Shown: positions 25,501-61,152 of the stretch, piece after piece
Layout: each line of letters begins with the position of its first letter
Position numbering within the stretch: the first letter of the stretch is position 1
Assembly (NCBI RefSeq): GCF_042242105.1
Contig: NC_092032.1
Coordinates: forward strand, 16,603,915-16,667,914
DNA length: 64,000 nucleotides
Reading direction: 5' to 3'
DNA from: Pempheris klunzingeri
Taxonomy: Eukaryota > Chordata > Actinopteri > Acropomatiformes > Pempheridae
Program-made: the position numbers and the translations under genes
The notes under the pieces: model-generated
The model's database searches: none
What the model saw: only the letters and a program-made list of their open reading frames with translations
Told to the model about the DNA's origin: nothing

Positions 25501-27214
25501 TTGTGACGGTCTTTGGCCCGTTGGTTAGGATAGTTTCTGCACCAGGGTTTGTGGGGTGATTGTGTTGGAGGTAGAAGTGAAGTCCAAAAAGAGCAGGGGG
25601 ACATATGCGTTCTTGCTAACAAGGAGGATGATGGTTGTGTGAACCACAGATGAAGTGGCATCACCAGTGGAGCAGTTCTTCCTGTAGGCGTACTGATGGG
25701 GGGTTCACAGGAGTCAATGAAATAGAATCACTGGAATAACTTCCTTGTCTGGTCTCTTTAATTTGGATATCATTACTTAGCATAAAGACAACCTGGACAC
25801 CTGTATACATGTTTTTGGCTCTGTGTGCCTAATAATAAACTAGTAACTGTGTGTATCAACAACACAAAGCCTACACAGTGAATTAAGTATAAGAGAATAT
25901 GTAACAATGCTGAAATGTTTCTCAAATATTACTTATACTCCTTTTAAGATACAATATCCTCTTTCAGCTTTCTGAAACTCTGATTTTAAAATTGTAAAAT
26001 GATTTCTTTATTGTCCAGGTCACTTCCTGTTGACACATTTGTTGCTTGACCTGATTAAAAGATCGGCACCAGCCAGGATTATCAATGTGTCCTCCATGGC
26101 TCACACCTGGGGCTCCATCAACCTGGACGACATCAACAGCGAGAAGAGTTACGACAAGAAGGGAGCCTACTCTCAGAGCAAGCTAGCTAATGTCCTCTTC
26201 ACCCGCTCGTTGGCTAAGAGACTAGAAGGTATTTGTTGTACCTTTTACCTCTGCCACTGAATTTAACTTGCACTGAAGTTCAAACGTTCTATTTATATGC
26301 TTTGTCATTGATGCTGTACAGAAACAGTAATCAGACGGTGATTCGTCTTTCAGGCACAGGTGTGACGACATATTCCCTCCACCCTGGAGTCGTCCAGACA
26401 GATTTATGGCGTCACCTGACCCCCACCCAACAGGTTTTCATGAAGGTGGTCAGTCCTTTCACCAAAAACTCTGTCCAGGGGGCGCAGACGACCATTTACT
26501 GTGCAGTGGAACCGTCCCTGGAGAAAGAGAGCGGTGGATACTACAGGTACACTGAACACGTAGACATTAAATCTTTTTTTGTGATATTAGATTAATGTCT
26601 TTCAATAAAAACACATTAAAAACATGTTTCCATGCTAATCCTGTTAACTTGATCCCAAGCCAAGGTTGGCAACCTCTCACCTAATTTACAATATAGTAGT
26701 TATATATATAGTGGTAATCAAACTGTTTGAAGAGGGATACTAAAAGTTTTATTGTGGTGTGGGCAATCAAGTCTTACATAAACATGGATTATCTAGTGAG
26801 AGTTGTCTGTCACAGGCACTGAAATTACTGCTCTGTGTTGTTAGTATACAAATTTAGAAAATAAAAGACTTTTACACAATGCAATAGTTTGCTTTTAGTT
26901 TAGAATGTCCTTACAAGAAGATGGTCACTATTTGCTAAATAGATATTACTTTTAAGATCAACTGATCACATGAATGAATCACTTCCCAGTTAAAATGCCT
27001 TTAAAAATCTTCTGATGGAATACATCCAGGACTTGAGCCTAAAACTCATCATATGAGAGAGATGATTTATCTAATTTTTAAGTTGGCTCTCTAATATGTC
27101 TTCGCTCGCAGCGACTGTGCTCCCGCCAACTGCTCAGAGGCCGGTAAAGACGACGACGTAGCGCAGAAGTTGTGGGAACTGAGCTGTCGGATGCTGTCGA
27201 TAACGTGGGAATGA
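22526..27214 (+). CDS. rdh12l: Retinol dehydrogenase 11/12-like short-chain dehydrogenase, 7 exons, 298 aa
   Basis: The family carries out NADP(H)-dependent interconversion of retinol and retinal, and also reduces other lipid aldehydes. Exons: 22526-22539, 22805-22920, 23737-23892, 23980-24084, 26019-26228, 26354-26546, 27112-27214; all introns are GT-AG and the total is 897 nt. Classical SDR signatures are present: cofactor motif TGANTGIG (residues 26-33), ACRD (50-53, the Arg favours NADP), NNAG (105-108), Ser156, and Tyr181/Lys185 in YSQSK. The 25-residue Ser-Tyr spacing is that of RDH11/12. Unlike human RDH12 it begins MQAIRNFF and has no N-terminal hydrophobic membrane anchor, as expected of the shorter fish rdh12-like proteins. 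The start is the only ATG before the spliced Rossmann fold. Intron 4 (1.9 kb) carries repeats. The exact orthologue (rdh12l or another RDH11/12 paralogue) is uncertain; the family is secure. The next gene downstream, 1.5 kb away on the same strand, is a PKS. Confidence 0.92.
23058..23077. repeat. (TA)n microsatellite
   Basis: About ten AT dinucleotides inside intron 2 of the retinol dehydrogenase gene. Confidence 0.85.
25020..25690. repeat. Degenerate dispersed repeat with an internal 20-bp minisatellite
   Basis: In intron 4 of the RDH gene. A duplicated TTCAAGGA motif at about 25033 is followed by roughly three copies of a 20-bp unit (aataaacaag + agcactataa, 25143-25201). Then comes a GC-richer block with GGAAAGAAGCTGTTCCTCAG (25384-25403). 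From memory similar blocks recur in many fish genomes, so I read this as an old transposable-element copy. I see no intact coding frame or terminal repeats, and the family is not assigned. Confidence 0.5.
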
Positions 27215-28721: not shown

Positions 28722-31700
28722 ATGGAAGAAGCTGAAGACAGCATTGCTGTGGTAGGCATTGGATGCAATTTTCCAGGGGGTAAGTCATTTGAATTTGGGA
28801 ACTTTTTTTGTGTGTTTCTTGATATTTTATTGACAAATTTGCCATTTACAGATTTTTCACAATGTGCATCAAGAAAAATGAACAATATTTCTGAATGTAG
28901 TTATTGAAAATTTAACGAAAACCATAAACAAAACAAATTGCATCATTTAAACATTATTAGATCAGCTCATAAATTAACAGATTAAAATGTGTTTACATGG
29001 GACAAATAACCTCTTAACAACCACCACAGTTGGTAAAATAAATTCATAGTATTTCTAAAAATGATTGTGTCATCATTTTATTTTGTCTAAATGAAGTTAC
29101 TGTGGCCAAATTATGTATTTCCTTTCTATGAATTATATCTAACCCTTTGACCAGAACTTTGTGATTGCAAATCAGGCGAATCGTGCAATTATAAAATGCT
29201 TAATGCAAACAGTGCACCTTTTTCTTATGATATTACCCACAACAACTTATTGTACCACAACTGAGCTTTTAATTACTATATATATCTTTCCAAACAGGAG
29301 AAGGGCTTGAAAATTTCTGGAAGGTTCTGGTGGATGGGAGAAACTGTTCTGTGCCAATTCCCAAAGAGAGATTTGACTTAGCCAGCTGGTATGACCCTGA
29401 TGACAGCAAAGCGGGTAAATCCCGCACAGCCAAGGCTGCCCTCATTGACGGGTATGGTCTTTAAATCTTACCCTATCATCTATTTAGGCCTACTTCTGTG
29501 TTTTGTACTTGTGTCTATACGGATAGTTATATATTTTTCCCTGCTGATGAAATGATCTTTTAATGTTGTTTATATCTCTATAATATTTGTGTTTCGTCCT
29601 TTGCCCCCCTTACCATACCATTTTTTTGTAACTTGTAAATGAAAACAATTTCTATGTTGCCCTTTAAATTTCCCTCTTTAAATATAAAAGAATATATATT
29701 AATGTATAAATACGATAGATACGATACATATGATAGAAGTGATTTTAGATGATCAAAAACAAATAAGGGGTTTTCCTCACATCAGAAATATCAGCTCTTG
29801 ACCAACATAAAGCTTTGCTGTCATTTGTACCAAGTGGTGTGCAGAAAGCCCCCTCTTCACTTTTTAATCCTCTCACATTATCTGAGTTTATACCAGCTTT
29901 GACTGAAATATGCTGCTGTGCAGAGCACTTGTGATTCTATTATTTCAAACTATAGTCTTCACGTTATTATATCATTTCCATTTAGGCAATTAAAGTGTTA
30001 AATTATTATATATTTCTGAGTAGCTAAATTTCATCTCGTGGTTTTAAATGTTTTTCAGGTTCAATGAGTTTGACCACAAGTTTTTTGGCATCAGTGACAG
30101 TGAAGTGGAACAAATGGACCCTCAACAAAAACTGCTCCTTCAGTGTGTCTACAGGGCTTTAGAGAATGCTGGGATTCCTATGGAGAAGGCCAGTGGGACC
30201 AGGACAGGAGTGTTTTTTGGTAAGTCAGTAAAAATGTGTTGGCGAGGATTGACTCTTAATAGTTTAAGTGTAATATTTGGCAAAAGGCTGGATGCAGGAT
30301 CAACTTCTTCTATTTCTTACTACAGGCCTAATGAACAGAGATTATGAGACAAATGCTGCACACGTGCACCCAAGTGTGATCAACCACTGGACCGGCACAG
30401 GGCTTGCCATGAGTATTGCAGCAAACAGAGTTTCCTACATCTTCAACTTCACTGGGCCCTCTTTGTCCATAGACTGTGCCTGCTCGTCATCTCTCGTGGC
30501 CCTCCATCTTGCCTGTCAGTCCATTAAACAAGGTCTGTACAGTATGTCTAGCTTAAGTCATGCCCAGCAATGTGGTTTTAATTACAAAGATGGTTTTATA
30601 AAAGGGTACTCAGATATTATGTGTGTGAGATTATGAAAAGTTTTATCTTATCAGGCGATTGTGACATGGCTGTTTGTGGAGGAGTCAACTGTATCATAGA
30701 GCCGAGAGTGTTTGTTGCTCTCAGCAAGGCCAAGATGATTTCACCTGAGGGGACCAGCAAACCTTTCTCCAACAAAGCAGATGGTTATGGTAGAGGGGAG
30801 GGCTGCGGTGTAGTTCTCCTCAAGCCTCTAAGAAAGGTCAGAATATTCAAAGTAATAAACGTGCAACAATTTCCCTATTTCAATCTTAATGACATCTGAC
30901 CATATCTGATAGACCTACATAAATTAATAACTGATTGACCTTCTATAACTAAGCAGTTCCCATGTCATTGCATGCCAATATGACACACTTAATGTTTTAA
31001 ACATTGTACTTTATTGTTGTTTACAGGCTATAGAAGACCATGACCATATCTGGGGCATCATCAGCAAAACAGCTGTCAACCAAGATGGACACTCAGTCTC
31101 TCCAATCACCAAACCCTCCATGACACAACAAGAGGAACTCCTGCGCAGAATCTACTCAGAGTCTGACCTTGCAAATGTCCAGTACATAGAGGCACATGGG
31201 ACTGGGACTCCAGTTGGAGACCCCATAGAGGCAGGAAGCATCTCAAACGTCATCGCTAAAGCCAAACCTCCTGGCTCAGAGACATTGCGCGTTGGCTCTG
31301 TGAAGAGCAACATTGGACATACAGAATCTGCAGCTGGAGTGGCCGGACTCATTAAGGTTCTCCTAATGATGAAACATGAGACCATTGTTCCCTCGGTTTT
31401 CTACTGTGAAGAGACTGCCAGTGTAGATGCCAACGCATTGAACATTAAGGTTCCTACGAAAGCAGAGAAGTGGGAAGCCTCCGGAGGAAGAATTGCAGGA
31501 GTGAACAACTTTGGCTTTGGGGGTACAAATGCGCACACCATTGTCAAACAGCACAAAAAGTCACGCACTGAGCAAAAGAATGATGGGACACAGACAAAGT
31601 ATTTTGTCATGTCTGCAAATTCACCAAAATCTCTCACTCTGATGATGGAGGACACCATTAAACAGCTAGAAGCAGATAGCAAAGTTGATCTAGAGTCTCT

Positions 31701-34700
31701 GTTGTACACATCAGCTTGCAGGAGGAGCCATCTAAAACATAAATACAGAAAGGCTATTGTGGTTACATCTGTAGTCGATCTTAAAGAGAAGCTAAGTGCC
31801 AGTGTAGGCAAAAACATTGGCCCGTCCTCCTCAGATCCGAGGTTAGTGTTTGTCTTTTGTGGAAATGGTGTCACTTACCATGGCATGTGCAAACAGCTAC
31901 TAAATCACGAGCCTGTATTCAGGGATAAGATCAAAGAGATTGCACAACTTTTACAAAGATGGAATACACTGAACATCTTAGATACACTCGAGAGTGAAGT
32001 TGAGGGTAGTGACTTCAAAAACCCAAATGTTGTCCAACCACTCCTCTTTGCTATCCAAGTGGGCATTTCTACTCTACTCAGACGCTGGGGTGTCAAGCCC
32101 GATGCAATACTTGGACACTCTGTTGGCGAGGTTGCAGCTGCTCACTGTTCTGGCCTCTTGTCTCTTGAGGATGCAGTTAAAGTCATCTACTTCCGCAGCA
32201 CACTCCAGAGCAAAGTCACTGGGGGTAAGATGCTTGTGATCAGCAACATGGCTGTATCAGAGGTGACCGCTCTTCTCCCTTGTTACTCTGGTAGAATTTG
32301 CCTTGCTGCTTTCAACAGTCAGCAGTCTTGCACCCTCTCAGGAGATGCAGATGCCATTGAGAGCCTTCATGAAGAGCTAAGATCCTCAGCCAATAGTCAG
32401 AATCTGTTCCTTCGTATACTAGATGTTCCTGCTGCTTACCACAGCCACATGATGGACCCAATTCTGCCAGAAATCACGGAAACAATTGGCTCCTTACAGG
32501 GAAATGATCTTGACACTGAGTTGTTTTCAACAGTCACAGGCAAGGAGGTCCAGCATGGTGATTTCTGCACAGGGGAATATTGGGCTAGAAACATTCGTGA
32601 GCCAGTAGATTTTGAGCAGGCAGTGAGGTCATCAATTAAAGGAAAGAGGAATACAGTTTTTGTGGAGATAGGGCCAAGAAGGGCGCTACAGAGAAACATC
32701 ATGGATTCTCTGGGTAATGACACAGCTGTTCTTGCATCAGTGCAGCCAGAGAAAGATCATGAAACAATAATGTCTGTTGTTTCAAAGCTATTTGAACTGG
32801 GTGTCCACGTAAATTGGAACACTTTCTACAGAGGGTACGAGACAATGCCATTGCCTATTCTGAAATACCAGTTTGATTGCTCAGACAGAGACGTTATCAT
32901 TGGAGCAGCACAGACAAACTCAAGAAGTAATCATCCTGTGCTCTGTCAGAAAGGAGGAGAAAGCAACATTTTCAGCTGTAACCTGCAGTCTGACTCTTCC
33001 TTCTACCTGAAAGAGCACAAGCACAATGGTATACCCATCATCCCTGGTGCCTTCTACGCCGAGTTGGGTTTAGCCACATTCATGGCCAGTGCAAAGCCAA
33101 AAGTACCACTCAGCTCACTACAGCTCAGTGTCAATTTTCACAGTCCCTTTGTTTTAACCCAGAATTCACCTGAGATGAAGGTACAGCTAGAACAAACAGA
33201 GAACAAAACCAGGTTCATGGTACTCTCCCCATCTGCAATGTATGCATCGGGCACAGTGGTTTCCAAGAAAGAGAGGCTGATTGAGGAGCAGTACATTTCA
33301 CTAAGCTCCATCTACAAAAGATGCAAATCTGCAGTGAGCTCTCAGGAGTTCTATGGGTATCTCTCTCAGGGAGGCTTTCAGTATGGAGACGTCTTCCAGA
33401 ATAAGGGGGATGTGCACTATGGAGAGGATCTCAGGGAGGCTTTTACACTTGTTGCAGTTCCAGAAGAATTAAAGTCTCAGTTGCATGAATACTGCATTCA
33501 TCCTGTTGTGCTGGATTTTCTGATGCAGCTTCTACCAGTTACAGTAGAGCACATTTTTGCTGGTAGACCAGGATTTCCTGCCAAAATAGGAAGTCTGACA
33601 GTGTTTGAACCCTTGCAAGATGAGATGATTGTCTATCTGAGAGCAATTGATGTGGGAATTGATCACTTTGAGGTTTGTGGCTGCTTTGCAGATAAAGAGG
33701 GAAGAGTGTTGGTTGAGGTTAAGCATGTGATAATCAAGTACCTTGGCAGTCGCTCTCATGTGGTGGAGGAGTATTTCTATCATAATGCCTTTAGTGTCAT
33801 TCCGAAAGGCATTACATCTGCTCCTCCCCGGGCGTTAGTGTTCTGTGACCGTATAGGGATCTCTAAAGGCCTTCAACAATATTTGGACTCTGGGTCTAGA
33901 TACGTTTCCTTCACACATGCAAAAGATATCTTGAGCCATGGGTTTCCTTCTCTCTTGGCAAATCTCAATATAACAGATATTGAGAAGAACTTTGATGAGG
34001 TCTTATTTTTGTGGGGCAAAGAAAACCTCACTTCACTCGCAGCTGATGTTGTCCTGCAGAATTTGGCGAGCTGCTGTGAGACGTTCCGCCAAATCGTCCT
34101 TGAGCTAAAGCGAATTCGCTTCCCGAACTCAATCAGAGCAGTCACCTACTGTTCATCTGACATCACTATAGATCACATAAGTCCAGGTTTTGCTCTTGCT
34201 GGCATGACAAGATCATTTGCTGCAGAGATACCAGATCTTTTATTTCAGCTGATTGATATAGGCACTGTCTCTGCCAAGGACATTGCAGCTCTGTCTGAGG
34301 TCCTAAAATCGTATCCTTGCAGCAAGTACCCAGAGCTGGTGGTAAAAGATGGGCTGATTCTGAAACCTTCCATTGTCCGCACTCCACCTGAAATCACTGA
34401 CAGTTCAGAGGGCAGTTTTACCTCTACAATGTCTGAGCCCTGCATCCTTCAGACAGCTGACACGCATGAGATGAGTCAACTGCATGCCATTCATTTTGAG
34501 GAGGAGGCCCAGCCAATCAGTGATACATCAGTTGAAATCCGGCTCACTAAGATATGTGTTCATTCATCGGATTACTTCCCCGTCAGTGCTTCACACCTGA
34601 AATTTGGCCCAACACTGTACTGGGACAAACATTCATCACAGAAACACAAGCTACTGGCTCTTGATTTCAGTGGTACTATAACAGCAGTTGGAAAAGATGT

Positions 34701-36576
34701 CAGGAAATTGAAAGTGGGAGACCAGATTGCTTCCTGCTATCCCATTGTGGCAGCCAGCAAGGTCAGAATTCCAGAGGATGTGTGCTACAGTGCCAAGCGG
34801 TTCCCATTCCTTGAAAAAACACCCTGTGTTTCCTACTTTGTGCTAGCATGGGAGATCCTGCATCGAGCCTTGCCCAGGGCTAAACATAATGTAGGAATAA
34901 TATCCTCTGCGCCTGATTCCGCGCTGATGAAAGTCTTGGCAATCACTTCTTACAAGTCGGGTTGGAATGTGATTGTTGGCACACAGTGCAATGGCAATTT
35001 TGTAGATGTTGGTCAAATAGATGCATTTGTCGTTTTACCACCATTTGATGAGTCTCTGATTGCTAAAATTTGCAACTTTCCAGGTGTCCCACATGTTGTC
35101 TTTGTCTGTGAATCTCAGATCCAGTGCTCGCTAGCTCTGGATGTATTCCAAAGTTTAAAGGAAAGTGTTCATGTGCAGACAATTCAGATGCCAGCCATTT
35201 TGCAAAAGGGGTCCTTGAGTGCACAAAAGCCACACATTTATCACTGGCTTAAGTCTTTGAGCTTGAGCAGAAAATTTGCTCTTGAAAGCTTCACCTTTCA
35301 GAGTGCAAAATCTGATGGTGTCCAGAGCCTTCATTCAGATAAACCACAATCATACTTCACCTCAAAGAGGCTGGCTGTTGTGGCTCTGGAAAAAGATGCA
35401 AGCAGTACGCTGTCTGACATTCCTCTGCTGCCAACCAAAAAACAGCTTTTCCGAAAGCAAGCAGTCTACATTGTGGCAGGTGGTCTTTCTGGTCTGGGCT
35501 TTGAAACGGTCAAGTTCATCTCACAAAGAGGGGGTGAGCACATTATCATACTTTCCAGGAGCAAGCCCACACCAGATGTGCAGCAAAAGATACACAATGT
35601 GGAGAAACAGTGTGGAAACGACATCACTACCATGGAGTGTGACATATCTGTGTCTGAATATGTGCACAAAGTTATCAGTGTCATTGGCCAGAAATTCCCT
35701 GGTTGTCCAATCAGAGGAGTGTTTCACAGTGCAGTTGTCTTGCATGATGGACTGATTGAGACCCTTGACAGATCCCTTTATGAGAAAGTTCTCAAACCCA
35801 AAGTAAATGGTGCTTTGAATTTGCACCATGCAACACAGCACTGTCGCCTGGATTACTTTGTGTGCTACTCCTCCATCTCAGCTTTTCTGGGAAACGCATC
35901 ACAGACAAACTATGCAGCAGCTAATTCATTCCTCGACATGTTCTGCCAGTACCGCCGCAAACTTGGGCTGCCTGGACAGTCTATAAACTGGGGAGCCCTA
36001 AATCTCGGTCTCCTCTTGAACAAGGAGCATTTCCAGCGGTTTCTGGAGGCAAGGGGGATGATGGTGTTGGATGTGGCTGAAATCCATAAAAGTCTAGAGC
36101 AATGCCTTGTGCTCAATCGTCCCCAACAGGTTGTTTGTAGGTTTCACTTCAGAAACATCAGGTATAACATCCTCTCTCAGAATGCAGCCTTAACCATGCG
36201 CCTGGTTGCATTGGTAGAGGAGGCCTTCCAAAAATCCAAAGAGGCAGATTCTCAAACTAAACAAACTGAATCCGTCTCACCAAGAGAGTATGTCGTCTCT
36301 CTGCTTTGTGAAACCATTGGCATGGATAAAAGTGAGCTGAAAGATGAATCCCTTCTTTCATCCTTAGGCATTGACTCCATGCAAGCCATGACTCTGCAGA
36401 ATCTCATCTTTCAGGAGAAAGGTGTGAATGTGCCTTTGGTGAAACTGTTGGACCCCAATGCCACAATATCAACAGTAGTAGACATTCTGAGTGAAGAAGC
36501 TGAAAGTGAAAATTTCAGCAATGGCTCAGAGTCTCTTCCAGTTGGAGACCTGGATGATGTTTCTACAAGATTGTAA
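28722..36576 (+). CDS. pks: Animal type I polyketide synthase, copy A, 6 exons, 2103 aa
   Basis: An iterative, FAS-like multidomain enzyme of the vertebrate PKS family. Known relatives are the fish otolith PKS and budgerigar pigment PKS. Exons: 28722-28779, 29298-29451, 30059-30219, 30326-30532, 30655-30836, 31027-36576. Domains in order: KS (about 9-430; Cys177 in DCACSSS, His311, His352); AT (about 527-810; Ser619 in GHSVG, His726); DH (about 890-1170; His918 in HxxxGxxxxP, Asp1084 with Gln1088); a structural, KR-like segment; an MDR/ER-like region (about 1420-1690); KR (1733-1900; GGLSGLG at 1739-1745, Ser1870, Tyr1883); and one ACP (Ser2038 in GIDSM). The ER-like part has no glycine-rich NADPH motif near 1543-1555, so enoyl reduction is probably lost. 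There is no methyltransferase, thioesterase or reductase at the C terminus. The gene converges on its paralogue 1.8 kb downstream. The product is unknown; a conjugated polyene is my inference. Confidence 0.95.
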
Positions 36577-36828
36577 AAAAGTGCAAATACAGAAATGTAA
36601 GCAACTACAGCACCATTCTTCTGTTAATGACACATGTTCATACTGTATTTTGGTTATTTTGTTTTCATTGTAAACGTACAGCTGTGGTTATTGTATTGGT
36701 TCATTTTAGTATACTTTTGCATTATTATAACCATACATCACAGTATTTTACTTGGAGACATCCCCAATTTTTAATGGATGCTTTGTGTCAGTTTTCATCC
36801 TGTTTATTGATATGTTCATGATAAAAAC

Positions 36829-36834
36829 ATTAAA
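36829..36834 (+). terminator. Candidate poly(A) signal ATTAAA of PKS copy A
   Basis: The common variant ATTAAA lies 253 bp after the stop codon. No canonical AATAAA occurs earlier in the 3' flank. Confidence 0.45.
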
Positions 36835-37170
36835 ATAGTCAGCATTACCATTAAGTACACAATTATTGTAGATAAATTATGCTTGTGTTAGTGAACAATT
36901 TTTGTAATTGAGTACTTTTTTTTTTACTTTATTCATTTTCAATACATTTTGAGACTTAAAAGCTCATCTGTAATTTTTCAACTTAGGAGCACAGGATTCT
37001 TCAGCACAGGATTCGGTCTGCATAATACTAACCCTAACTTTTATCTGCTTGTTTTATATTCTCTCAGCTCTCACAGGTCATGGTCAGTTGTTATCACTGC
37101 TGGCTCATTGATTCTGATTGATTACCACTTTTATGATGGTGATGATGGAATGAAACATGTGACACAGTTT

Positions 37171-37320
37171 CAGAATCAGAATCAGAATCAGAATCAACTT
37201 TATTGGCCAAGTTTCTACAAGCAAACAAGGAATTTGACTCCGGTGAAACTTGTCTCTCTATGTACAGTAAGAAAATTAGAAATAAACTACAACAATAAGA
37301 ATAAGAACAGAACAATATAA
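37171..37320. repeat. Dispersed repeat beginning with (CAGAAT)n
   Basis: Four tandem CAGAAT units (37171-37194) lead into TTTATTGGCCAAG and TTTGACTCCGGTG. From memory this arrangement is common in teleost genomes and I take it as a transposable-element copy of unassigned family. Confidence 0.55.
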
Positions 37321-38398
37321 GTATTACGTATTCTGATCATGTCCCATAAACATTAAATTGGGGGCATGTATAATTACTGGGTTTTGCTGTTTGAACTACA
37401 AATTTATCACATTGTGTGGACATAGACTTTGTTCTCCACAAGGACAGACAGTGCATTCAAATATGATGAAAACAGATACAGTAATCTATTATGTTAGTAC
37501 CTATAGCACTGTTTTCCTACTAAGACAATATTACAATCACAATTAAGCAAATGATTTGGTTATTTGAATATTCTGAGGAGTTTTGACAGTTTTTTCATCA
37601 TTGTGGTTAATGTGATCCCAATGAATCATACATGCTATCTTGGCAACATGTGTGACTTTATTTTGTTTTGTTTCTTCAAAGACAAGACAATAATACTTAA
37701 GTAAATTTCACAATGCACTTGATAATGGTGGTTTATTCACAACTGTTCCTTCACACAGATTACACAATTGAGATTTTATTGTAGCATTTAACAAAATTAT
37801 CCGGAGTGGCTCCAAATTAATGCAGCCAAGTCAGTTTATCATGAGCACCCATTTCATTTGTTCACACTTCCAAAAATAAATTATGCTTAAAAGATTGCAA
37901 ATATTGCTAAATAAAAATTTAATTTTGAACTGCTCAACATTAACTGTGCCACTCGTAGTAAGTCTTTGTGGCACAAGAGCTGCTATATACGCACTCTACA
38001 TTTAACCAACATCACAATTAGACATATCAAATGACAAAGCAAACAACAACAGTAGAGAAATGCATCATCCAAACAATGCATTGACAATGACAGTGGACTT
38101 TCATGGCATGAAGAAATAAAAATAAAATCAGGCTAATAACAAGAAAGTAGTACAGCACAAAAATTGTGACTGAATAAGGATGTCAGTGGACAAACAAGTG
38201 TAACATGCAGTAACTCTGAAAGATTATTGTGGGGTTGTGTAAACACGCCTACTGCAAAGAAATTCAATTCCATTTGACTGCAATAAGAACAATACCTCTG
38301 AGGTGAAACAGTACAGTCCCTCTGCAAAAACTTGAGATATCTCAAAGTCTTTTCATTGATTCCATGGATCAAAGTATTATTTGATGTATTCCATTCAA

Positions 38399-41300
38399 TT
38401 ATACATTATTCATGACAATATTTGCCAAAGTGGCCAGTGTACTGCTGGGATCCAGTATTCTAACCAAAGGCACATTTACACCTGTCTCTTGGAAAATTTT
38501 ATTCTGCAGAGTCATGGCCAACATCGAGTCGATGCCCAGTGCACACAAAGGTGAGTTATCATCCAGCTCATCTACGCATATGTTGCTGATGTCACTGACA
38601 ATTGTTCTCACATTTACATGTGTGGAGGACAAATGCTGAACCCTCATATCATTACTTATGTCATCTTTTAGCTCCATTTCGACTAAAGCTGACAGCCGCT
38701 CTTTGAGGGATGCATTTTGTGAAAGTACATGAATGTTAAGGTTTTTGAAGTTGAACTTGCATATGACTTGCTGTGGTCTGTTCATCAGTAGACACATTTT
38801 AAGTGCCTCGTGAACATCACATACATCCATTATCATCATCCCTTTTGCTTCCAAAAACTTTTGGAAATGGCCTTTGTTGAACAAGAGTCCGAGGTTCAGC
38901 GGACCCCAGTTGATGGACTGTCCAACAAGTCCAAGGTTTCTCCGATAATGACAGAACGTGTCGAGGAAGGAATTGGCTGCTGCGTAGTTACTTTGTGAGG
39001 GATTGCCAATGAATGACGAGATGGAGGAGTAGCACACAAAGAAATCCAGCTTCTTGTGGAGTGTTGCATAGTGAAGGTTTAGAGCCCCATTTACTTTGGG
39101 CTGCAGCACCTTCCGGAGGAGGGACTGATCAAGGGTTTCAATCAATGCATCATGTAATACTGCGGCACTGTGAAACACTCCTTTGATTGGACAAGAGGAG
39201 AATCTCTGTTCAATTTTTGAGATTGCACCCACTACCTGCATCGACATAGAAACATCACACACGACATTCATGATCGTAACGTTGTATCTTCTCTGTAGGA
39301 GTTCCATTTCCAACTGCATTTCATCAGTCAGAGTTCTTCTAGAGAGTGTTGCGATACAACCACCACCATTATGGGCAATGAATTTTACCGTCTCAAGTCC
39401 CAAACCAGAGAGCCCTCCAGTTACAATATAAACACAGTGTTGTTTAAAGAGTTGTCCAGGACTCATAAGCAACGGGATATCAGACACTGGACAATCGCAT
39501 TCTCTGTGATCCAGAACAACTTGCTGCACTGTCTTTGTTGTGAAGTAGGACTCAGCATCTGCATTGGTCTGAAGCTCTTTTGTGTTTGATGTTTGAAAAG
39601 TCTCCCTTTTCAAAGGTAGAGAGACTCTCTCAAAGCCCAATGACATTAGCCAATTAGAGATATTTCTGTTTTGTACTTGCAGATTGGCTCTCTGGAGAAC
39701 TTCAGCCACATCAAGTTTATGTACATGCACGTGTTCACTCTTCATTGCAAACATGTTTGCCGAGAGTGAGAATGACAGAGGATTACTACATACAAAAATA
39801 ATGTGTCTATCAGGACCACCAATGTCATACATCCCCTGCCAAGAGTGATCAAATGGGGGCAGAAAAACAAATGCACGAGTCTGATCAAAATGCAGAGATT
39901 CTTCACTGAAATGTGGTAGAGAGGACACATTCCAGCCAGATCTGTTTGCTGTCAGAGCCAAAACTTTCATCAGAGCAGAGGCCGGGCTCAAGGAGACAAT
40001 GACCAGCTTTCTGTGCTGTTGTTTTACCCTAGATAGCATTCTCTGCAGGATCTCCCATGCCAGTATGAAGTAAGACACACATGGGGTCTCTTTCAGAAAC
40101 GGGAGTCTCATTGTGCTGTAACACACACCTTCAGGGATTATAACCTTCGCTGTGGCAGCTACTGGATAACATGAAGCAATATGATCTCCCACTCTTAGAT
40201 CATAAACATCCCTCCCGACAGCTGTTACAGTGCCACTAAAATCTAAAGCAATAAGCTTGTGATTCTGTGACGTACACTTGTTCCAGTACATTGTCTTACC
40301 GGAGTTCAAATGTGAATTGGTGACAGGAAAGTAATCTGATGAATGCACGCACACATTGGTGAGCTGAATCTCAACTGACTTCTCTTGGACAGGATTTGCA
40401 TTTGTGTCAGTGGCGATGGCGGACAAGTGAGCTACTCTGTACGGATCAGATGTTTGTAAAACAAAGTTGCTCAGATGAACTGAATGGAGATCACCTTCAC
40501 ATAAAGCCCTGTCTATCATCGGGGTCCGAGCTATTCTTGTTGTTGATGCTTGCCCATTGCTGATCATGACCTCTTGTTGTTTGCAGATGTTCATTACATG
40601 AACCAGCGTTTGAATGTCTTCACTGGTCACAGATGCGAGGTCAATCAGCTGAAAAGTGAGATCCGCCACCTCTGCTGCACAAGCCCTTGTCATGCCAGAC
40701 AGCACAAAACCAGGACCAACATGGTCCACAATCGTTTCTGTCGATCTATAGGTTATGACGCGGATGATGCAAGATCGTTTGCTCTCTTTTAAGGCTAAAA
40801 CAATTTGGCGAAATAGCTCGCAGCAAGTCACCAAGCAGTCCAGCATCCTCTCGGATGACAAGTGACTGAGGTCCTCTGCACCCCAAATGAAGAGAACATT
40901 TTCCAAATCCACACTGGAGTTAAGTGAGTGCAACACTACATGTCGGACTTCATCTGCCATCCAGTGCTCTCTGCTCTCCACAAATACTGACTCTGGGTGT
41001 GTGTATGGCCTAACTCCTTTAGCAATGCCAAGCTTGTCTTCAAAAACTACTGCTTTTATTTGGCAAATTTGCATGTTTGTCTTGTCAGGAATTGCAATTA
41101 TTTCATTGTGTAAGAAAAATGACTGAAGAGCATTTGAGCAATTGTCCAAAAATGTAATCCTCACTCCCTTAAGTTCCACCAGTACATGGCCGTCTGTGGT
41201 GGAAAAGCTACCACATAGATCGAGGAAGTCTGGAGTCTCTCGAGTGGCTCGTAAGTACATGACCATTTCCTCTTGCAGTGGCCCTGATATTGCCACACTG

Positions 41301-44300
41301 CCGATAGCTGAAGGGAAGCCCTGTTTGGCTGTTAGCCGGCCAACAGCTACCACAGCACTCATTTGTAAGAAGTAGTCCAACAACACGGGGTGAATGTAAT
41401 AGTCATGAAGGTGTTTTAGAAGTTCACATGGGACTTTGATTGCTGTCACTGCTTCCTTGAATTCATCTCCAAAATGCACATCATCAAGCTGTTTGAAGAC
41501 AGTGCCATATTCAAACCCTGCGTGAGAAAGGATGGAATAAATCTCTTTTCTCTTCATGACCAGATTGCACCTTCGGGAGATCATGTCAAGACAAATGGTT
41601 TGTTCTTCTAACAGTGGTTGGCCAACTGTACACCTGTATGTGCCAGAGGTATGTGTTGCGGCAGAAGAATGTACTTTAAATGAAGCCTCATTCTCTGCAT
41701 GGTCTAGTGTCACTTTCAACTGATGACAGTTTGAGGTCAGTGCAAAGACTCTCTCAAATCTCACGCTGAGCTGGAGCACACAAACTGGTTTCTTTGGCCT
41801 TAAACTTGCCATTACTGAGGCATAAGCTAGTTCGACATAGAATGCACCTGGCACAATGGGAATACCATTGCTTTTATGCTCCCAAAGATATGGTGCACTC
41901 TTTAATGAGAGGTTGCACGTGTACTCTTTATCTTGCTTTGTTTGGGATATGAGCATATGGGGAAAGAAAGCAGATGATTGACCTTTTATTGCAGCTTCAA
42001 AATTCAATTCTTTCTTTGTGTTGACAAACTGATAGACTGGAAGAGCTGTGGGCAAAGTCTCATAACCTCTGTGGAATTGATGCCAGTCCACACTGATGCC
42101 CAGTTCAAATAGTTTTGCCACGGTAGATAAGATTGTATCACAATCTCTCTCTGGCTGGACAGAGGAAAGAACTATGGTATCATCTCCCAGAGTCTCTTGT
42201 ATGTTTCTTTGAAGAGCCCTACGAGGTCCAATCTCCACAAAGACCACATTTCTCCTTGATTGCTCATCTTTAATGGCAACACGCAGTGTTTGTTCAAATA
42301 AAACAGGCTCTCGTATGTTCCTTGCCCAGTACCTGCCTGTTCTAAAGTCACCATCTGAACAACTGTCTCCTGTCATTGTTGAGAAGAGTTTGCACTCGTT
42401 GTTGTTGGCATGCAAGTGATCAATATTTTTCTCAATGTCATCTAGTATAGGATCCATCATGTGGCTATGGTATGCTGCTGGTACATCTAACTCATGGAGG
42501 AAGAGATTTTTCTCTGTAAATGCAGTCTTCAGCCTCTGATGGACGATGTCTATAGCACCTGCATCCCCTGACAGAGTGCAGGACTGGGGGCTATTGAACG
42601 CTGCGACACAAATTTTCCCAGAGAAGACTGGCAGGATTTTTAAAACCTTTTCTACTGCCACATTACTAACAAGAAGCATTTTCCCCCCTGTGACCTTGCT
42701 CTGAAGGGCACTGCGGTGGTACAACACCTTCACAGCATCCTCAAGAGACAAGAGACCAGAACAGTGAGCTGCAGCGACCTCACCGACAGAGTGTCCGAGC
42801 ACGGCATCAGGTTTGACACCCCAGTGCTTTAGCAGAGTGACAATGCCAACCTGAATTGCAAAAAGAAGAGGCTGAGCGACATTTGGCTTGCTAAAATCAT
42901 CATTATCGTACTCACCAGCTAGCCACTGAATGATGCCAATGCTGTTATGACTCTGGAAAAGATTCTCAATTTCTCTGACCTTATCTCTGAAAACAGGAAA
43001 CTCCCTCAGGAGCTGCTTGCACATGCTCCTGTAGGCTACCCCGCTTCCACAAAACACAAAGACCACCTTCATTCCAGACCTTATTGACTCAACCGGTGTT
43101 TTCAGTGCAGATGTCAATTGATGTTTTAAATCCATGAGGGAAGATGTTGGGAAGGCCCTCCTATATTTGTGTCTAGAATGACTCCGTCCACATGCTGAAG
43201 TGTATGACAGTGCCTGTAAGTCAACCGTTTCATCACTACAAAGCCTCTGGTGGGTGTCAGTGATGGACAGGATACACGATTCCTCAGAGGCTGCAGATAT
43301 TACAAAGAGTTTTGCACAGCCTTTTAGGATCTGTGTGGGAATGGTGGTCTGTTTGTACCCTCTTACAATCACATGTGCATTTGTGCCTCCAAACCCGAAG
43401 CTGTTGACCCCAGCAACCCTTTCTACTTGCCCATTTGTCTGCCATCTTTCCACTTTAATCGGAACACTTATATGCAGAGTTTTTACATCTACACTGGCAG
43501 TCTCTTCAGAGTAGAAAACTGAGGGAACAATGGTCTCATGCTTCATCATTAAGAGTACCTTAATGAGTCCGGCCACTCCAGCTGCAGATTCTGTATGTCC
43601 GATGTTGCCCTTCACAGAGCCAATCCGCAGTGTCCCTGAACCTGGAGGTTTGGCTTTAGCGATGACGTTTGAGATGCTTCCTGCCTCTATGGGGTCTCCA
43701 ATTGGGGTTCCAGTCCCATGTGCCTCTATGTACTGGACATTTGCAAGGTCAGACTCTGAGTAGATTCTTTCCAGCAGCTCCTGTTGTTGAGTCATTGACG
43801 GTTTGGTGATCGGAGAGACCGAGTGACCATCTTGGTTGACAGCTGTTTTGCTTATGATGCCCCATATTTTGTTGCAGTCTTTTAAAGCCTTTGAATAGAA
43901 AAATCACACCATCAGCAGGAAATTAATTATCAAATTTAATGATGATGTGAAATGACTAAAAAAAATATAAACCCAGTACTTGCTTACGTTTTTCAGTGGC
44001 TTCAGGAGAACCACACCGCAGCCCTCCCCTCTGCCATAACCATCTGCTCTGTTGGAGAAAGGTTTGCTGGTCCCCTCAGGTGAGATCATCTTGGCCTTGC
44101 TGAGAGCAACAAACACTCTTGGCTCCATGATGCAGCTGACACCTCCACACAGAGCCATCTCACAGTCTCCTAATTGAAAAAGAAAGTGACAAGTGAAATA
44201 TGGAACATTTAAATGTGATGATTTGACTGGCTTGCTTTTTAGGCACGTAGTGAAAAGAGAATCGCATACCTTGTTTTATAGCCTGACAGGCTAAATGCAG

Positions 44301-45689
44301 AGCCACCAAAGATGAAGAACAGGCACTATCAATGGCAAAAGAAGGGCCTGTGAGGTTAAAGGTGAAAGAAATTCTATTGGCAGCCACACTCATTGCTGTC
44401 CCAGTGCTGTTGTAGTGGGTTGTTGTAGAAGAACTGTTACTTTGGAGCATCTCATAATCCCTGTTCATTAGACCTGCAACACCATTACAAAAACAGACCA
44501 TGTTACAATTTATGCATCATCAATTTGTGCTTTTTTATTTAAAGTGCATCATAGAGCTTTTGTAGGCACCTATGTAGACTCCAGTTCTGCTTCCACTGAT
44601 GCTCTCCATGGCCATTCCCGCATCCTCTAATGCCCTGTATGTACACTGCAGAAGGAGTTTCTGCTGAGGGTCCATAAAATCAGCCTCTGCTTCAGTAATG
44701 CCAAAAAACTTGTGATCAAACTCATTAAACCTGAAATATAAAAACAGCAGATCCGTCATAATTCAAACATCTCTCAGCAGAAGGATTTCTCAATCACAGT
44801 CTCTCATCCTCAGCCCCCTGCATTGCTCTGTCCCCGTCTCCAGCCCCGCTTCTCCCAGGCCATGTACTTTTCCTCCAACTTGCCATCCTCAAGCTGTCCA
44901 CCAGATGCCCTCGGACTTTCCCTCCTTTCCCCATCAGCTAACTGCCGTCCACACACCAGATCCCACTTCCCTCATCTGCTCTTAAGTTGAATGGGCTTCC
45001 TCATCCGCCGCCTCACCTGCATCTCATTCCCTCATCACCTACTCACTATATATACCAGCCCAGATCCATTGCTCCTTGTCAGACTTCTGTTAATGTGTCT
45101 TGTGCCTTTTTGTTGCTGTTGTCTTCATTTTGAAACCTGTTACCTGCCTGTCTGAACCTCTGCATGATCCTCTCTTTTGATTAATTTAACTATTTGGACT
45201 GACTTCCCAGTTTTGACCATTGTCTGTCTCATCACTCCTCCAGCCTTTGTACTGTACATCTGTACTGTGCATCACTGAACTGTCCTCAGCTGTCCGTTTG
45301 TATCATAACCCTGTTACCCTTCACAGTCACCATGACAGAAATGCTTGGTCTTAATCTAAACAGATAATGCTTACCCTTCAATAAGAGCTGCTTTGGTTGT
45401 CTGTGTCTTTCCAGGTTTGCTATCATGAGCATCAAACCAACATGTGGTGTCAAACCTCTCTGCTGGAATATCCACAACACAGTTCTTTCCATCCAACAGA
45501 ACCCTCCAGAAATTGTCCAACCCTTCCCCTAAAATAAAATGGACCACAATGCTTGTGATTTGCCTTGAGACAACTGGAAAAAATTAACTCAAATTCTAAA
45601 TGCTTGCAACAGCTTCTTAATTTAATCATACCTCCAGGGAAATTGCATCCAATCCCGATGACGGCTATGTCATCCTCTGTGTCCTCCAT
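38399..45689 (-). CDS. pks: Animal type I polyketide synthase, copy B, 6 exons, 2082 aa
   Basis: Paralogue of the plus-strand PKS with the same exon plan and phases. Exons (read on minus): 45689-45632, 45528-45375, 44730-44570, 44473-44270, 44169-43988, 43888-38399. Four of the first five exons have exactly the same length as in copy A; exon 4 is one codon shorter. Catalytic residues seen: KS Cys176 (DSACSSS), His310, His351; AT Ser620 in GHSVG; DH His924 and Asp1091; KR GGLSGLG with Ser1875 and Tyr1888; ACP Ser2041 in GIDSM. The ER-like region again lacks a glycine-rich NADPH motif (it reads [11 protein letters not shown] there), and there is no methyltransferase or release domain. The main difference near the active site is a Ser/Thr-rich KS loop (about residues 136-148). 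Intact residues and an open 5.5-kb frame argue for a working enzyme, not a pseudogene. Confidence 0.95.
44781..45330. repeat. Possible retroelement-derived insertion in intron 2 of PKS copy B
   Basis: Intron 2 has a pyrimidine-rich block unlike the rest of the gene. On the plus strand it contains a TATA-like ACTATATATACCAG at about 45045-45058 and ends in TGACTTCCCAGTTTTGACC (about 45199-45217). These features resemble repeats I recall from fish genomes (LTR-like or non-autonomous), but I see no clear terminal repeats or coding remnant. Confidence 0.35.
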
Positions 45690-47161: not shown

Positions 47162-50100
47162 CTAGTGGTCCAGTGATTTTCCCTCCAGCACCATCTTGAT
47201 CTCTTTAGCATCCAGAGTTTCATATCTTAGCAGGGCATCAGCCAGCGTCTTGTGCTCCTTGTCGTAAGTCTTCAGGATGCTTTTAGCACGTTCATATGAG
47301 TCCTGGGTGGAAGAGAAAGGTTGGTCAGTTAGATATCGAGGAAGAAAGAGGTGTTATAAATTATCTCTATTGATAGATCTGTAAATTAAACACAGCCAAT
47401 AGAGAGCGTTGTAGGAGAGCTCACCTTAAGTAAGGCCCTGACTTCCTGTTCAATGGCAGCTTGTGTCTCGGGGCTCTGCTTGGTTACATCACCGTAGGTC
47501 ATGACACCAAGCTGAAACATAACACAAATTACACCCTTAGGTTGAATAAACAATAGATCTTCTCATGCATTAGTAGTTAAAGAATCATTCTGAACTGTGA
47601 GAGTCCAGGGTGAGACAGATTTTCATTGTCTTAGGTGTAATTATATGTTACAGTAAAGTTAGAGATCAGCAGGTTCTCATTCCAACTTCACAATAAATCA
47701 GTGTCACAGTCTGTAACTGGAGACACACTGAAATGAGCTACTGTCATGTCAAGTAGTTCATGATTAGATAACAGGTGTGCATGACATAGAAGGAAGTACA
47801 ATAAATAATGTGCGTGTTTAAAACAATAAAAACATCCACATGCACATTTACACTTGACTTTGTGCAAACACTTTGGTGTATATACTGTAAATAAAGGTCC
47901 AGCCCCGCAGCTGTGTGTACAGTAACAGCACTGTTTCATTCAACTGTTGTCTATGTTAGTGGAAAGGATCAAAATGTCCACACATCAACCACATAACTTT
48001 GAATTTCTATTCACCTTGGCACTCATGCCGAACCTGGTCACCATCATTTTTGCTATTTTGGTGGCCCCATCGAAGTCGCTGGATGCTCCTAAAATGGCAC
48101 AACAACAGGAAAACATTGACATTAAGATTAACATTATCAGGTACTTAAATATTTCACTGTTTGTCTGGTGGTTCTTAAGTCATCACAACTGAAAACACTT
48201 CATCCAGATGATCAGTACATACTTTTTATCAGTACTTTTCAAAATTATGTTTTTGTAATAAATCCACCGCTCTGAATTTTTTTTAAATATTCCAATTATA
48301 CAATACGGGAGGAGTATTTTATCTTTAACTGTGTTTCTGGTTCAGAAATGACACCAAAGAGTCAAATAAATCGAGTTCTGTTATCCCCGCACCGGTGGTG
48401 ATGTAGTCGTCTCCAAAGATGAGCTCCTCTGCTACGCGACCGCCCATACTGACGTCCATCTGAGCCAGCAGCTGGGCTCTCGTCTCACTCCAACGATCGT
48501 TCTCCGGGAGCATGGACACCTTGAGGACAGGAACAGTACTGATTAGCTTTGGTTTTAACATAAAGTGACACAAATGGTATTTGAGTGTGAGGTATATTGT
48601 GGGGCCAGAAGAAGAACTCACATGGCCGAGAGTCGGGCCTCTAGGCATGATCGTGGCCTTATTGATGGGCATTGCATCTTTGGTGAAATAGGCAACAATG
48701 GCATGGCCGGACTCGTGGTAGGCTGTGATGGTCTTATTGTTCTTGTCGATTTCAACACTCCTCCTCTCAGGGCCTGGTATAGAAAACAAAAAAGGATTTT
48801 AAGTGATTAAAACAAAAGCTCTCCTTCACGTTATCTCTCTGAGACAGTCTTCCCGTCTCATAAATACAGAGTGTCCAAGTAAGCGGTCTCATGTGATGTT
48901 GATGTGAGGGGTGCGGAGCAGATCTAAACACTGAGTGTGCTCACCCATGAGGATCTTGTCCTTAGCGAACTCTAGGTCCTTCATTGTTACCATCTCTTTC
49001 TCGTCCACGGCTGCCTTCAGGGCTGCCTGGTTGACCAGGTTCTCCAGCTCTGCCCCAGAAAAGCCCACTGTGCCCCGAGCAATTATCTCAGCCTCCACAG
49101 CTGTAAAAGAACAAAAAACAATAGAAGATGCCTTCTTTAGAAAGGTGATCAGTGTTGGGGGGGGGCAGAAAATAGTGTCCTTCACAGAGATAGCAATGGT
49201 ATTTTTAAGACAGTTACAACTGATACATTTCCAAAAACTTTTTTTCAAGATACTAACAAATAAGAGTGAAGTAAGAAATACAACCTGAAAGATTTGCTTT
49301 GTGACATTAAAAATCATATTTATATCTTAATATTGTTGAATGTTTTACACTGAGACCTACCGGGGTCCACTTTGATCTTGGCGAGGTACCAGTTGAGAAT
49401 TTCAGTGCGTCCTTTCACGTCAGGGCGGGGGACTGTCACCTGCATGTCAAACCTTCCTGGCCTTACCAGAGCACTGAAAGGTAGTTGCAAAGTAGCAACA
49501 AATTAGATTTCTTTAAAAACCAACTGCCTTGTGAAACTATGCTCGCAGTGTCCTGTAATACTGTGAATAATGAAATGAAGATGCAAGGTTTGTGAGAAGA
49601 AGAGAACATGTGAGAATTTTAGTTTTGAGGACTGTGACATGTTTTTTCCCCTTTTACTCAAGTTTAATTCACAGTCATTGCACAGATGGAAAATTAACAC
49701 TAGGAGCAATTCTCAAAACATTTTAATTAACTTCCCATAAAAATGTAAAGCAGTAAGACTTAAATTTGTTGTCTTGGTGTAGTTGGTATAAAACCAGGTC
49801 AGTGGTTTTAATTTATATCAATTTTATATAATTAATGTATATTTTAGCGTGTGTTTTATTTGTGTACATGACGTGGTTCCACTCAGACAGAGTTATAGCG
49901 AAAATAGGCCAAAGCAACAACGATTAAACAGCTCGAGGCATCTTACAGACAACAAAGGTTACAGAGTGGGAGGTAAAACACTGGAACACTTTTGTATACA
50001 TGAACTGCATCTACTTAATGTGTGGACTGGCCTTATTTGAAGCAATAGGATATTTTAATTAAAGCAAATTAAAGTCTAGGCAGAAAGAAATATAGAATGT

Positions 50101-53100
50101 AATAATATAATTATATATTTTTTGTGTGTGATTAAATGTAAACTTACTTATCTAAAGCCTCTGCAAAGTTTGTAGCACCGACAACGATGACACCTTCATT
50201 TGGTTTAAACCTGTAAAATACCAAAACATTGAGAATAGGAAGAAAAAGTTACAACATTTTATTGACACTATGCAGTTTTCAAATTGTAAAAGCCAGAAGA
50301 CTGACCCATCCATTTCAGCCAGCAGCTGGTTGATGGTTTGTCTGGAATAGGGATGCATGGGGGACTCAATCCTCTTTCCACCAACGCTGTCCAACTCATC
50401 GATGAAGATGACACAGGGAGCATTAGCTTTTGCCTCTTCTGCAAAACACAAAAAACAGAGAGATTGCAGTCGCTTGGATACATCCTCAACTGGTAACTCA
50501 CACTTTCTTGCATCCAGCAAACTTACTGAAAAGGTTCCTGATTCGGCTCGCACCAACACCCACGAACATCTCATCAAACTCTGACCCAGAAGCGTAGTAG
50601 AAAGGAACATCGGCCTCCCCAGCGACAGCCCGTGCTAACAGAGTCTTTCCAGTGCCTGGGGGACCAACGAGGAGGATCCCTGAGAGGATAACAGAGGACA
50701 CACGTTAGGGTAAAGTGCAGGACGGAGACTAATTGGCAGATTTGTGTATTAGATCCAATAAAAACAGGGGAAATGGAAGATGTGGAGAAAATATGAAATA
50801 CAATACCTTTAGGCAGCTTTCCACCCAGAGCAGTAAACTTCTGAGGATTCTTGAGAAACTCGACAACATCTTGCAATTCATTCTTTGCCTCCTCCACTCC
50901 TTTCACATGCTCAAATGTCACATTCTTCATCTGGACGGGGTCGACTGCTGAGTCAAGACCAGATGTGGTGCGGAACCTCACTGTGAAATCCCAAAACAAC
51001 TGGTTCAGTACAGCAACATCAGAGAAGACTACTTTATTTACAGTGTCCCACAATGGCAGACAATGTCACTGCTGCTTTCTCCACATTTATCGCCTCCGAC
51101 TTTTTGAACATTTCTGGCTCACTGGCATGAAAACATACTCAGTTGATATAGATATTTAAGTATTACTACATAGTGGCATGTAGCAGAATAGTCAGACAAA
51201 CTCTACATGCACACCATAGGACAGATCATATTTCAGGAAGAAGTTACACACTGAAAACTTATTACATCCAATATTTATCCTGAAACTGGGCTAAATAGGC
51301 CCTTGGAGGCACTAACAACCTTGGTTCTATTTGCAGTGTGCGTGCAGAGTTGTGAGTTGATTTGCAAGCATGAAAAGGAATAAAGACTGAAACAAACCAG
51401 CATCAGAAAACGAGCCTTTACCAGAGAGAAACGGGTTTCTTGACAATCCATAAATGCCAACAATTAAGAGGACCAACAGGATCAACCTGGTTCTCCTCAG
51501 CATGTCTGTCAAAACAGAGAGAAAGAGACAAACATTAGTCATGAGGCCTTTATGTCAGTCGTATGAACCTCTCTGTAATTCAGCACTGCCACATGCCTTG
51601 TGTTCTCTGAGTGAAGGCCTGAGACCTCATGAATCCCTCAGTGAAACCGGTCTTGAAAGCCTCCTGCTGATTCTCTGGTAGGTTCCTTTGTTTCGTCAGT
51701 TGATCCAGTGATTGTGCCTCTAAACCCTTTTCCTTCTGAAACATTCCCTGTGATGGAAACAGAGGGAGAGTTGGTTATTAAGCTTTTCACTTCTTTATGT
51801 TTTATGTGCACATTCACAAATAGGTCCCCCCAATAGGTGGTACTCCACCGCACGGTGCCCGCTCTACTCGCTTGGACTAGTTCTCCCAGCGGCAACAGTT
51901 GTGCGCACTACTTGGTACCTTGTACATTTTTTGGTAACACCTCTGTCAAGGTTCCAAGCAAGCGAGGTGATACTACAAGGTGATGTGAAGACACTGCAGA
52001 CTGGTCAGAGGAAATCGTCACTAAATTCACTAAACTCAGATTTTTTTTAAGAAAATGGATGCCTGCAAAACCATGCCGTAGTGCAGATGTATGAAGGACA
52101 CAATCCCTTCGATATCCTCTCTTTCCCTCCCTTAAAGGAATAGGGCAGAGGTACGCTGTGTGCAGAGCGAATGTTCTGAGCATGAGAGAGAGAGCAGCAG
52201 AGAATGTTGGTGAATGCGAAGAGAGCAGAGGGAAAGGTGAGCACTGAAGTTGAAGATTTAGCAGTAAATAAACAACGAAGGTCACAATTTGTGTTGCTAT
52301 GAGTCCAATAAAACTCAAAACATTAACTCTATCCCTGGCGACGCCGGCAGTTTTATGAAGCATCGCTATGATGACCAGCAAAGACTACCACCTACATTGA
52401 GGGGGCACTACCTGCAGTAGAAAATGAAGTACCTGGTAATAAAATTGAGTTGAGTACAGTAGCGCCTCACCATGCGGTGGAAACACTGCATTATCTTTCG
52501 ATTAGACAGAATGTGAAAACAGCTGGACTAGTAACATGCTGACCTTCATGAAGGCTGGTGTGAAGGGCTCAGACTCAGATGAATTGTCATAGCCAGACTG
52601 CATTCGTCTGGTTTTTGATCGTAGTGTTTTGAAACCCCGACTCTGGACCCACACTAAATAGAGACACAAGAGAAAAACCAAAAGGATTAAATATTACCCT
52701 AAATGTCTAGCCATTCAGACACATACAGAACTTAAACATGGCTGGTTAAGTATTCAAAGTCTGTTTCTTACCTGGTAAAAACTGTAACTCTGAGCAAACT
52801 TCTTTTAGAGGTCTGTGGTACTGTCTGTGGAAAATTGGGGAGCCAAAAACCCCCAACCTTCTATGTGAAAACCCTATCAGACAAAAAGTGCAAAAGGTTA
52901 GATTCACTTTACAGGATATATTTACAAACGCAGAAAATGTATTTTCCAAATTAACTGCTCTTCGATATGACAGATTTGAATAAAGTGAGCTTTGGGGATA
53001 TTTTCTGAGAAAACAATACAGCTGAGTGGCCTTTCTGCTCACCATGCTTGTTGTGAAAGAAGCTGTCTGCAGAAACGTGACTCGTCCTCCATACTGAGGG

Positions 53101-55332: not shown

Positions 55333-61152
<5,820 letters not shown>

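Follow-up and report, generated by a model that had tools for sequence, protein, structure and literature searches.

The closest known relatives of the two genes reported here are the otolith polyketide synthases (PKSs) of fish and the polyene-pigment PKSs of birds, the relatives that an earlier note on this DNA had correctly named. Medaka olpks has six exons, encodes 2051 residues and is needed for otolith nucleation (ha locus); otolith rescue requires single residues of each of its ketosynthase (KS), acyltransferase (AT), dehydratase (DH), ketoreductase (KR) and acyl carrier protein (ACP) domains (Hojo et al., 2015). Three zebrafish otolith mutants, nco, csr and vns, have been traced to pks1 (Thiessen et al., 2019), and a review reports that otoliths were restored by extracts of Aspergillus expressing OlPKS (PMC7036892). 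Bird PKS is mainly single copy, with two copies in chicken and quail (ApPKS paper). In parrots its product is a feather polyene, and chicken GgPKS1, when expressed in yeast, yields the parrot polyenes (PMC7036892). Here we describe a pair of such genes, A and B, in a 64,000-nucleotide stretch of the Pempheris klunzingeri genome (GCF_042242105.1, contig NC_092032.1, positions 16,603,915 to 16,667,914, forward strand; hereafter the window).

The earlier note held that vertebrates rarely have even one PKS, which the literature contradicts. Table 2 of Hojo et al. (2015) lists two PKS genes each in zebrafish and fugu, three each in medaka and anole, and two each in zebra finch, painted turtle and green sea turtle. 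PKSs are described as relatively widespread in vertebrates by Lin et al. (2024), who report no animal FAS-like PKS (AFPK) from this group. Since two or three PKS genes are listed for other fish, a retained pair is in itself already known. Zebrafish pks1 (wu:fc01d11) and si:dkey-61p9.11 are, like the present pair, two KS-AT-DH-KR-ACP genes; in the open-licence literature, a search on the name of the second of these led to Hojo et al. (2015) alone.

Genes A and B are intact animal type I PKS genes from an old duplication. Taken as a whole, we think it somewhat probable that they are two old paralogues, that B is the otolith gene and that part of their KS domains has been homogenized by gene conversion. 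Splice models and Pfam bear out two full-length genes facing each other tail to tail, as first proposed, and the proposed limits of the pair are the two start codons (28722 in A, 45689 in B). Identical exon plans had also been claimed: exon number, order and phase agree (five of five splice phases, with exon end phases 1, 2, 1, 1 and 0), and intron lengths do not. Exons 1, 2, 3 and 5 are equal in length; exons 4 (207 versus 204) and 6 (5550 versus 5490) differ slightly. All 10 introns of the models have GT-AG ends. In gene B, the intron 3 donor (window 44562-44569, minus strand) is gtgcct, which departs from consensus at positions +4 and +5 and keeps the frame homologous to A; the other splice sites were judged by eye. 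Each coding sequence has a single, terminal stop codon. The large exons are open over 1850 (A) and 1830 (B) codons, which rules out chance as the origin of the frames. The genes are separated by 1822 bp, with AATAAA or ATTAAA hexamers, frequent in AT-rich DNA anyway, downstream of both stops. The two proteins share 1155 of 2060 aligned residues (56%), and 62% of bases in aligned codons are identical. Overall synonymous divergence (dS) is about 2, which is saturated, with a non-synonymous divergence (dN) of 0.36. Local alignment of intron pairs 1-5 gave no similarity clearly above shuffles (20, 164, 255, 300 and 226 of 300 shuffles equal or better).

A motif check upheld the presence of all KS, AT, DH, KR and ACP catalytic residues in both copies: the KS motifs (Cys, two His), AT GHSVG, DH HxxxGxxxxPG and HPxxLDxxxQ, KR GGLSGLG, YSSIS and NYAAAN, and ACP GIDSM. 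Pfam, applied to the large exons, gives hits over the cut-off in both copies for Ketoacyl-synt_C, AT, DH (two models), KR and PP-binding; the ADH_N hit in A falls below it, and none is listed for B. The N-terminal KS half is encoded by the small exons and was matched in the KS family scan of the genome. The A/B alignment shows the KR lysine in A (KPK) and B (QPK). The AT motif AAYH is identical in both, and we take motifs of this kind to mark malonyl-type ATs. Upstream of an enoylreductase (ER)-like stretch lies what is presumably a pseudo-KR part. In a structure-library search with 300 residues of this stretch from A, residues 4-115 alone resemble the ER of CurF. The single NADPH motif pattern tried had no match in A or B, and a motif pattern for thioesterase found no GxSxG downstream of the ACP in either. 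Budgerigar MuPKS, chicken GgPKS1 and duck ApPKS have the same domain order, including the ER-like stretch, and no release domain (ApPKS paper).

With five domains and their active-site residues in one chain, A and B fit the vertebrate type I PKSs (OlPKS/MuPKS group). The ER-like stretch without a canonical NADPH motif and the lack of a thioesterase, a trait of this group, are indicated by motif patterns in both and by the library search in A. Motif patterns and library searches gave no sign of the active ER and C-terminal thioesterase of an animal fatty acid synthase (FAS). PDB comparisons used the large exon (best 60 of 119 and best 60 of 113 matches). For A, the scores are 355.9 bits for EryAI, 345.9 for mycocerosic acid synthase, 337.1 for Dictyostelium Pks16, 281.3 for EcPKS1 and 270.6 for the best FAS; for B, they are 346.9 for Pks16, 327.8 for mycocerosic acid synthase, 313.9 for EryAI, 248.3 for EcPKS1 and 247.6 for the best FAS. 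By score, not by tree, A and B thus appear closer to microbial PKS than to animal FAS, in agreement with the group named animal PKS by Lin et al. (2024) and the ApPKS paper. Animal FAS and the FAS-like EcPKS1 share KS-AT-DH...KR-ACP ancestry with the pair, in which no thioesterase motif follows the ACP. They score below the best microbial PKSs, yet several PKS chains in the lists lie below FAS, and the score varies with the domains that a chain contains.

The genome comprises 646 Mb in 439 contigs, and scanning it with the KS family gave 11 matches: six in A and B, one on contig C16 and four on contig C20. By eye, the C16 frame is OXSM-like (mitochondrial) and one C20 frame is FASN-like. Scanning with the large exon of B gave five matches: A and B themselves, a single one on C16 and a further two on C20. 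Neither scan found a third PKS; both score best candidates only, and a decayed copy could escape. In a wider collection of genome contigs, the large exon of B found no relative and the A/B alignment found two weak bacterial KS matches only (34 and 40% identity). A scan of viral contigs gave no relative.

Published medaka oligos provide two peptides for comparison, MEDGIAVV at the N-terminus and IFNLS[L905]DITPY before the DH histidine. At the latter site B reads [10 protein letters not shown] and A reads NLQSDSSFY. Counted by eye, B matches medaka at six of nine residues, sharing NLSL...PY, and A at four of nine; the L905 position is L in B and S in A. The spacings start-Cys, Cys-Ser, Ser-His, His-Tyr, Tyr-Ser and Ser-end are 173, 435, 306, 945, 151 and 41 in medaka, 177, 442, 299, 965, 155 and 65 in A, and 176, 444, 304, 964, 153 and 41 in B. 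The last value is the tail after the ACP serine, equal in B and medaka and longer in A. Six exons and about 2.05 thousand residues, as in pks1/OlPKS, are common to A and B, and published zebrafish pks1 RT-PCR primers matched nowhere in the window even when three mismatches were allowed.

These comparisons weakly favour B as the pks1/OlPKS otolith orthologue. Several points weigh against this assignment. It draws on two short medaka oligos, residue numbers and spacings, and the N-terminal oligo is ambiguous, its IAVV being common to A. The KS-AT and DH-KR spacings fit A and B about equally badly. Zebrafish G239 has its counterpart at position 239 of A and position 238 of B; for zebrafish L681, A has L at 680 and B has V at 681. 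Zebrafish residue numbers are thus non-discriminating, with a slight lean to A. That A is the otolith orthologue and B a spare paralogue is a serious but lesser possibility: the glycine, the leucine and IAVV speak for it, and B is the better match in the peptide leading up to the DH histidine, at the L905 position and in tail length.

Each protein would act as an iterative KS-AT-DH-KR-ACP synthase, in which AT would load malonyl units, KS would condense them, and KR and DH would reduce and dehydrate in every round. The duck ApPKS AT has been shown to load acetyl- and malonyl-CoA (ApPKS paper). The chain would remain a conjugated polyene, as the NADPH site of the ER-like stretch appears to be lost; with no thioesterase, release would need a partner. 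As the probable pks1/OlPKS orthologue, B would make a lipophilic product that starts otolith mineralization, and A would probably make a similar polyene elsewhere or later. A split of functions between A and B is a guess, and it counts against the reading as a whole that products, release and tissue roles are predicted from sequence. The product of fish otolith PKS is still to be identified in the papers cited, and a genome with both copies intact offers a clean pair for comparison. It could tell whether the role is set by the enzyme or by its expression site, as reported for chicken and parrot PKS (PMC7036892).

Alternatively, the pair may be redundant, with one copy barely or not transcribed and simply undecayed so far. 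Medaka has three genes, and for the two extra ones, OlPKS-2 and -3, Hojo et al. (2015) report a missing DH residue and saw no expression, whereas the scans here show two genes, both intact. The weak intron 3 donor of B would also suit a silent copy. We regard this as rather unlikely: with dS saturated against a dN of 0.36, stops and frameshifts would be expected in a dead copy, yet both frames and all checked motifs are intact. RNA is also listed for both zebrafish genes (muscle and kidney; Hojo et al., 2015).

A stretch of the KS domain departs from the general divergence of A and B; it is absent from the earlier note. The matching DNA comprises 185 bp of exon 5 (90% identity) and a further 405 bp where exon 6 begins (91%); the tract lies in the C-terminal half of the KS and holds both of its catalytic histidines. 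In 60-codon windows, dS is 0.16-0.54 in six windows covering aa 182-391 and above 1.2 in every other window. By segment, dS is 1.84 in exons 1-4, 0.23 (0.07-0.43) in the exon 5 core and 0.28 (0.16-0.41) in the exon 6 core, and aa 389-425 are saturated. We also counted degenerate codons for the same residue (1120 in all). Identical codons make up 133 of 162 in the tract (36/44 at aa 205-253 and 97/118 at aa 255-390), and 69/133 at aa 1-204 and 360/825 at aa 391-2103 outside it. The best identical-codon segment, aa 211-388 with 131 of 158 identical (penalty 3), has a score reached by none of 20000 shuffles; its bounds are aa 196-388 at penalty 2 and aa 21-388 at penalty 1. A second, much weaker run at aa 1854-1871 (13/13) was reached in 117/5000 shuffles with penalty 3 and in 251/5000 with penalty 2, and the best segment outside the tract at penalty 1 in 511/20000. 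The shuffles take codons as independent, and regional constraint remains compatible with their result. Searching the genome with the tract DNA gave no match beyond A and B, which leaves a third gene as conversion donor unsupported.

Low synonymous divergence that is local and sharply edged, in copies otherwise saturated, is the pattern that gene conversion predicts, and exon-limited conversion fits the tract best. One conversion across both exons should carry the intron, which shows no similarity. Unless intron 5 was replaced after conversion, the tract therefore likely reflects two or more exon-limited events or else a spliced template. Short exon-confined conversions would have overwritten the C-terminal KS half of one copy with that of the other, well after the duplication, while the rest diverged freely; the events look much younger than the duplication. 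Two points weigh against conversion. We looked for GC-biased conversion and saw none, GC at third codon positions being 0.49/0.51 in the tract and 0.41-0.51 in other segments. Conversion and synonymous constraint were also weighed through the A/B comparison alone, which separates them indirectly.

Strong synonymous constraint, from splicing or RNA signals, would be the other explanation. The tract begins near the start of exon 5 and ends within exon 6, where exon-linked constraint is conceivable, and its base composition is without clear conversion bias. We nevertheless consider constraint quite unlikely. Other conserved stretches show no drop in dS, neither the AT active site (aa 602-661, 85% identical, dS 1.6) nor the KR (aa 1818-1877, 78% identical, dS 1.3), and the far edge of the tract is abrupt. 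Exon-limited conversion of half a KS domain between tail-to-tail synthases seems to be new: we found no paper on it, or on a link between fish PKS and YME1L1 (see below), in the open-licence literature, in searches not worded for gene conversion. The tract marks a part of the enzyme kept alike while the remainder diverged, and KS-based trees of fish PKS may cluster copies by species instead of descent.

As the two genes converge, the KS tracts of A and B form inverted repeats separated by about 12 kb, with the AT-to-ACP parts of both genes between them. Exchange between the tracts would invert this block and delete nothing; it would swap the processing halves between the two promoters and give two full-length chimeric synthases. 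It is conceivable, as a long shot, that the pair acts as a synthase cassette that can be inverted, with an orientation that is polymorphic in the species or differs between species. The same recombination would keep the KS half alike, perhaps using spliced templates, given that copying left out the intron that separates the tracts. An assembly artefact, which the earlier note named as grounds for refutation, or an uncollapsed haplotype has next to no chance, with no supporting evidence found: base identity in aligned codons is too low, both genes are on a single 22.5-Mb contig, the introns show no similarity clearly above shuffles, and two such genes are known in other fish.

Table 1. Positions in the window of the PKS pair, its exons, domains and homogenized tracts, and of neighbouring genes
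Feature	Position	Strand	Basis and remarks
PKS gene A, KS-AT-DH-(ER-like stretch)-KR-ACP	28722..36576	+	six exons, 2103 aa; splice model, Pfam, motifs
PKS gene B, architecture as gene A	38399..45689	-	six exons, 2082 aa; splice model, Pfam, motifs
Gene A exons	28722-28779, 29298-29451, 30059-30219, 30326-30532, 30655-30836, 31027-36576	+	splice model
Gene B exons	45689-45632, 45528-45375, 44730-44570, 44473-44270, 44169-43988, 43888-38399	-	splice model
Tract 1 of gene A (exon 5)	30657..30841	+	90% identical to 43983-44167 of B; own-genome DNA search, alignment
Tract 2 of gene A (start of exon 6, C-terminal KS half)	31025..31429	+	91% identical to 43486-43890 of B
Tract 1 of gene B (exon 5)	43983..44167	-	own-genome DNA search
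Tract 2 of gene B (start of exon 6)	43486..43890	-	part of the longest pair of inverted repeats listed between 28000 and 46500
Intron 5 of gene A, 190 bp, between tracts	30837..31026	+	no similarity to 99-bp intron 5 of B (226/300 shuffles as high)
AT domain of A (PF00698)	31846..32760	+	Pfam
DH domain of A (PF21089 + PF14765)	32953..33744	+	Pfam
ER-like stretch of A	34522..35421	+	library search, motif pattern
KR domain of A (PF08659)	35461..36000	+	Pfam
ACP domain of A (PF00550)	36286..36483	+	Pfam
AT domain of B	42182..43063	-	Pfam
DH domain of B	41147..41938	-	Pfam
KR domain of B	38897..39433	-	Pfam
ACP domain of B	38420..38611	-	Pfam
YME1L1-like i-AAA protease exons	48328..50634	-	48328-48798 best PDB match yeast YME1; Peptidase_M41 and AAA domains
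MASTL (greatwall kinase) exons	55578..59143	+	55578-55979 PDB match greatwall kinase; later exons without Pfam match, named by eye

To the right of B lie YME1L1, MASTL, ACBD5-like and ABI1-like genes (Table 1). The ACBD5-like gene has an ACBP match at C21:16672507-16672632 and a C-terminal frame named by eye; the ABI1-like gene was named by Abi_HHR. The PKS locus thus stands beside YME1L1, as in birds, a neighbour that the earlier note did not mention. Redpoll PKS is reported to be syntenic with RAB18 and YME1L1, which the authors read as homology with budgerigar PKS (PMC8616904). RAB18 is near the bird PKS, whereas here RAB18-like exons are about 11.8 Mb off on the PKS contig (4.86 Mb) and on contig C15 (2.90 Mb), where an ACBP match lies 21 kb away. 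The RAB18 query was a human sequence, and synteny was compared within this genome and with published bird reports. Because the pair is near YME1L1 as in birds, one ancestral PKS locus probably gave rise to the otolith and feather-pigment enzymes; the neighbourhood fits an ancestral vertebrate locus, partly rearranged here. Tying a fish PKS pair to the bird locus on its YME1L1 side seems to be new, and YME1L1 as a common neighbour supports a single locus behind ear stones and feather colour.

The C15 region (C15:2874942-2897721) is a second ACBP-RAB18 neighbourhood, where the KS family and B exon scans gave no PKS match. It is probably the partner region from the teleost genome duplication. Gene content, genome size and the presence of two RAB18-like loci point to a bony fish, most likely a teleost. 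Upstream of A, on the same strand (window 23658-26595, plus), is a short-chain dehydrogenase gene, with adh_short at 26003-26257 and retinol dehydrogenase-like by eye, for which a place in a PKS biosynthetic cluster would be speculation; a tandem array with a 20-bp unit in 3-4 copies (window 25142-25224) lies within its span. In otolith growth, bicarbonate is supplied by carbonic anhydrase. A carbonic anhydrase 2-like exon is found at L022:7781-8020, about 12 kb left of the window and about 41 kb from gene A, a linkage that may be coincidence.

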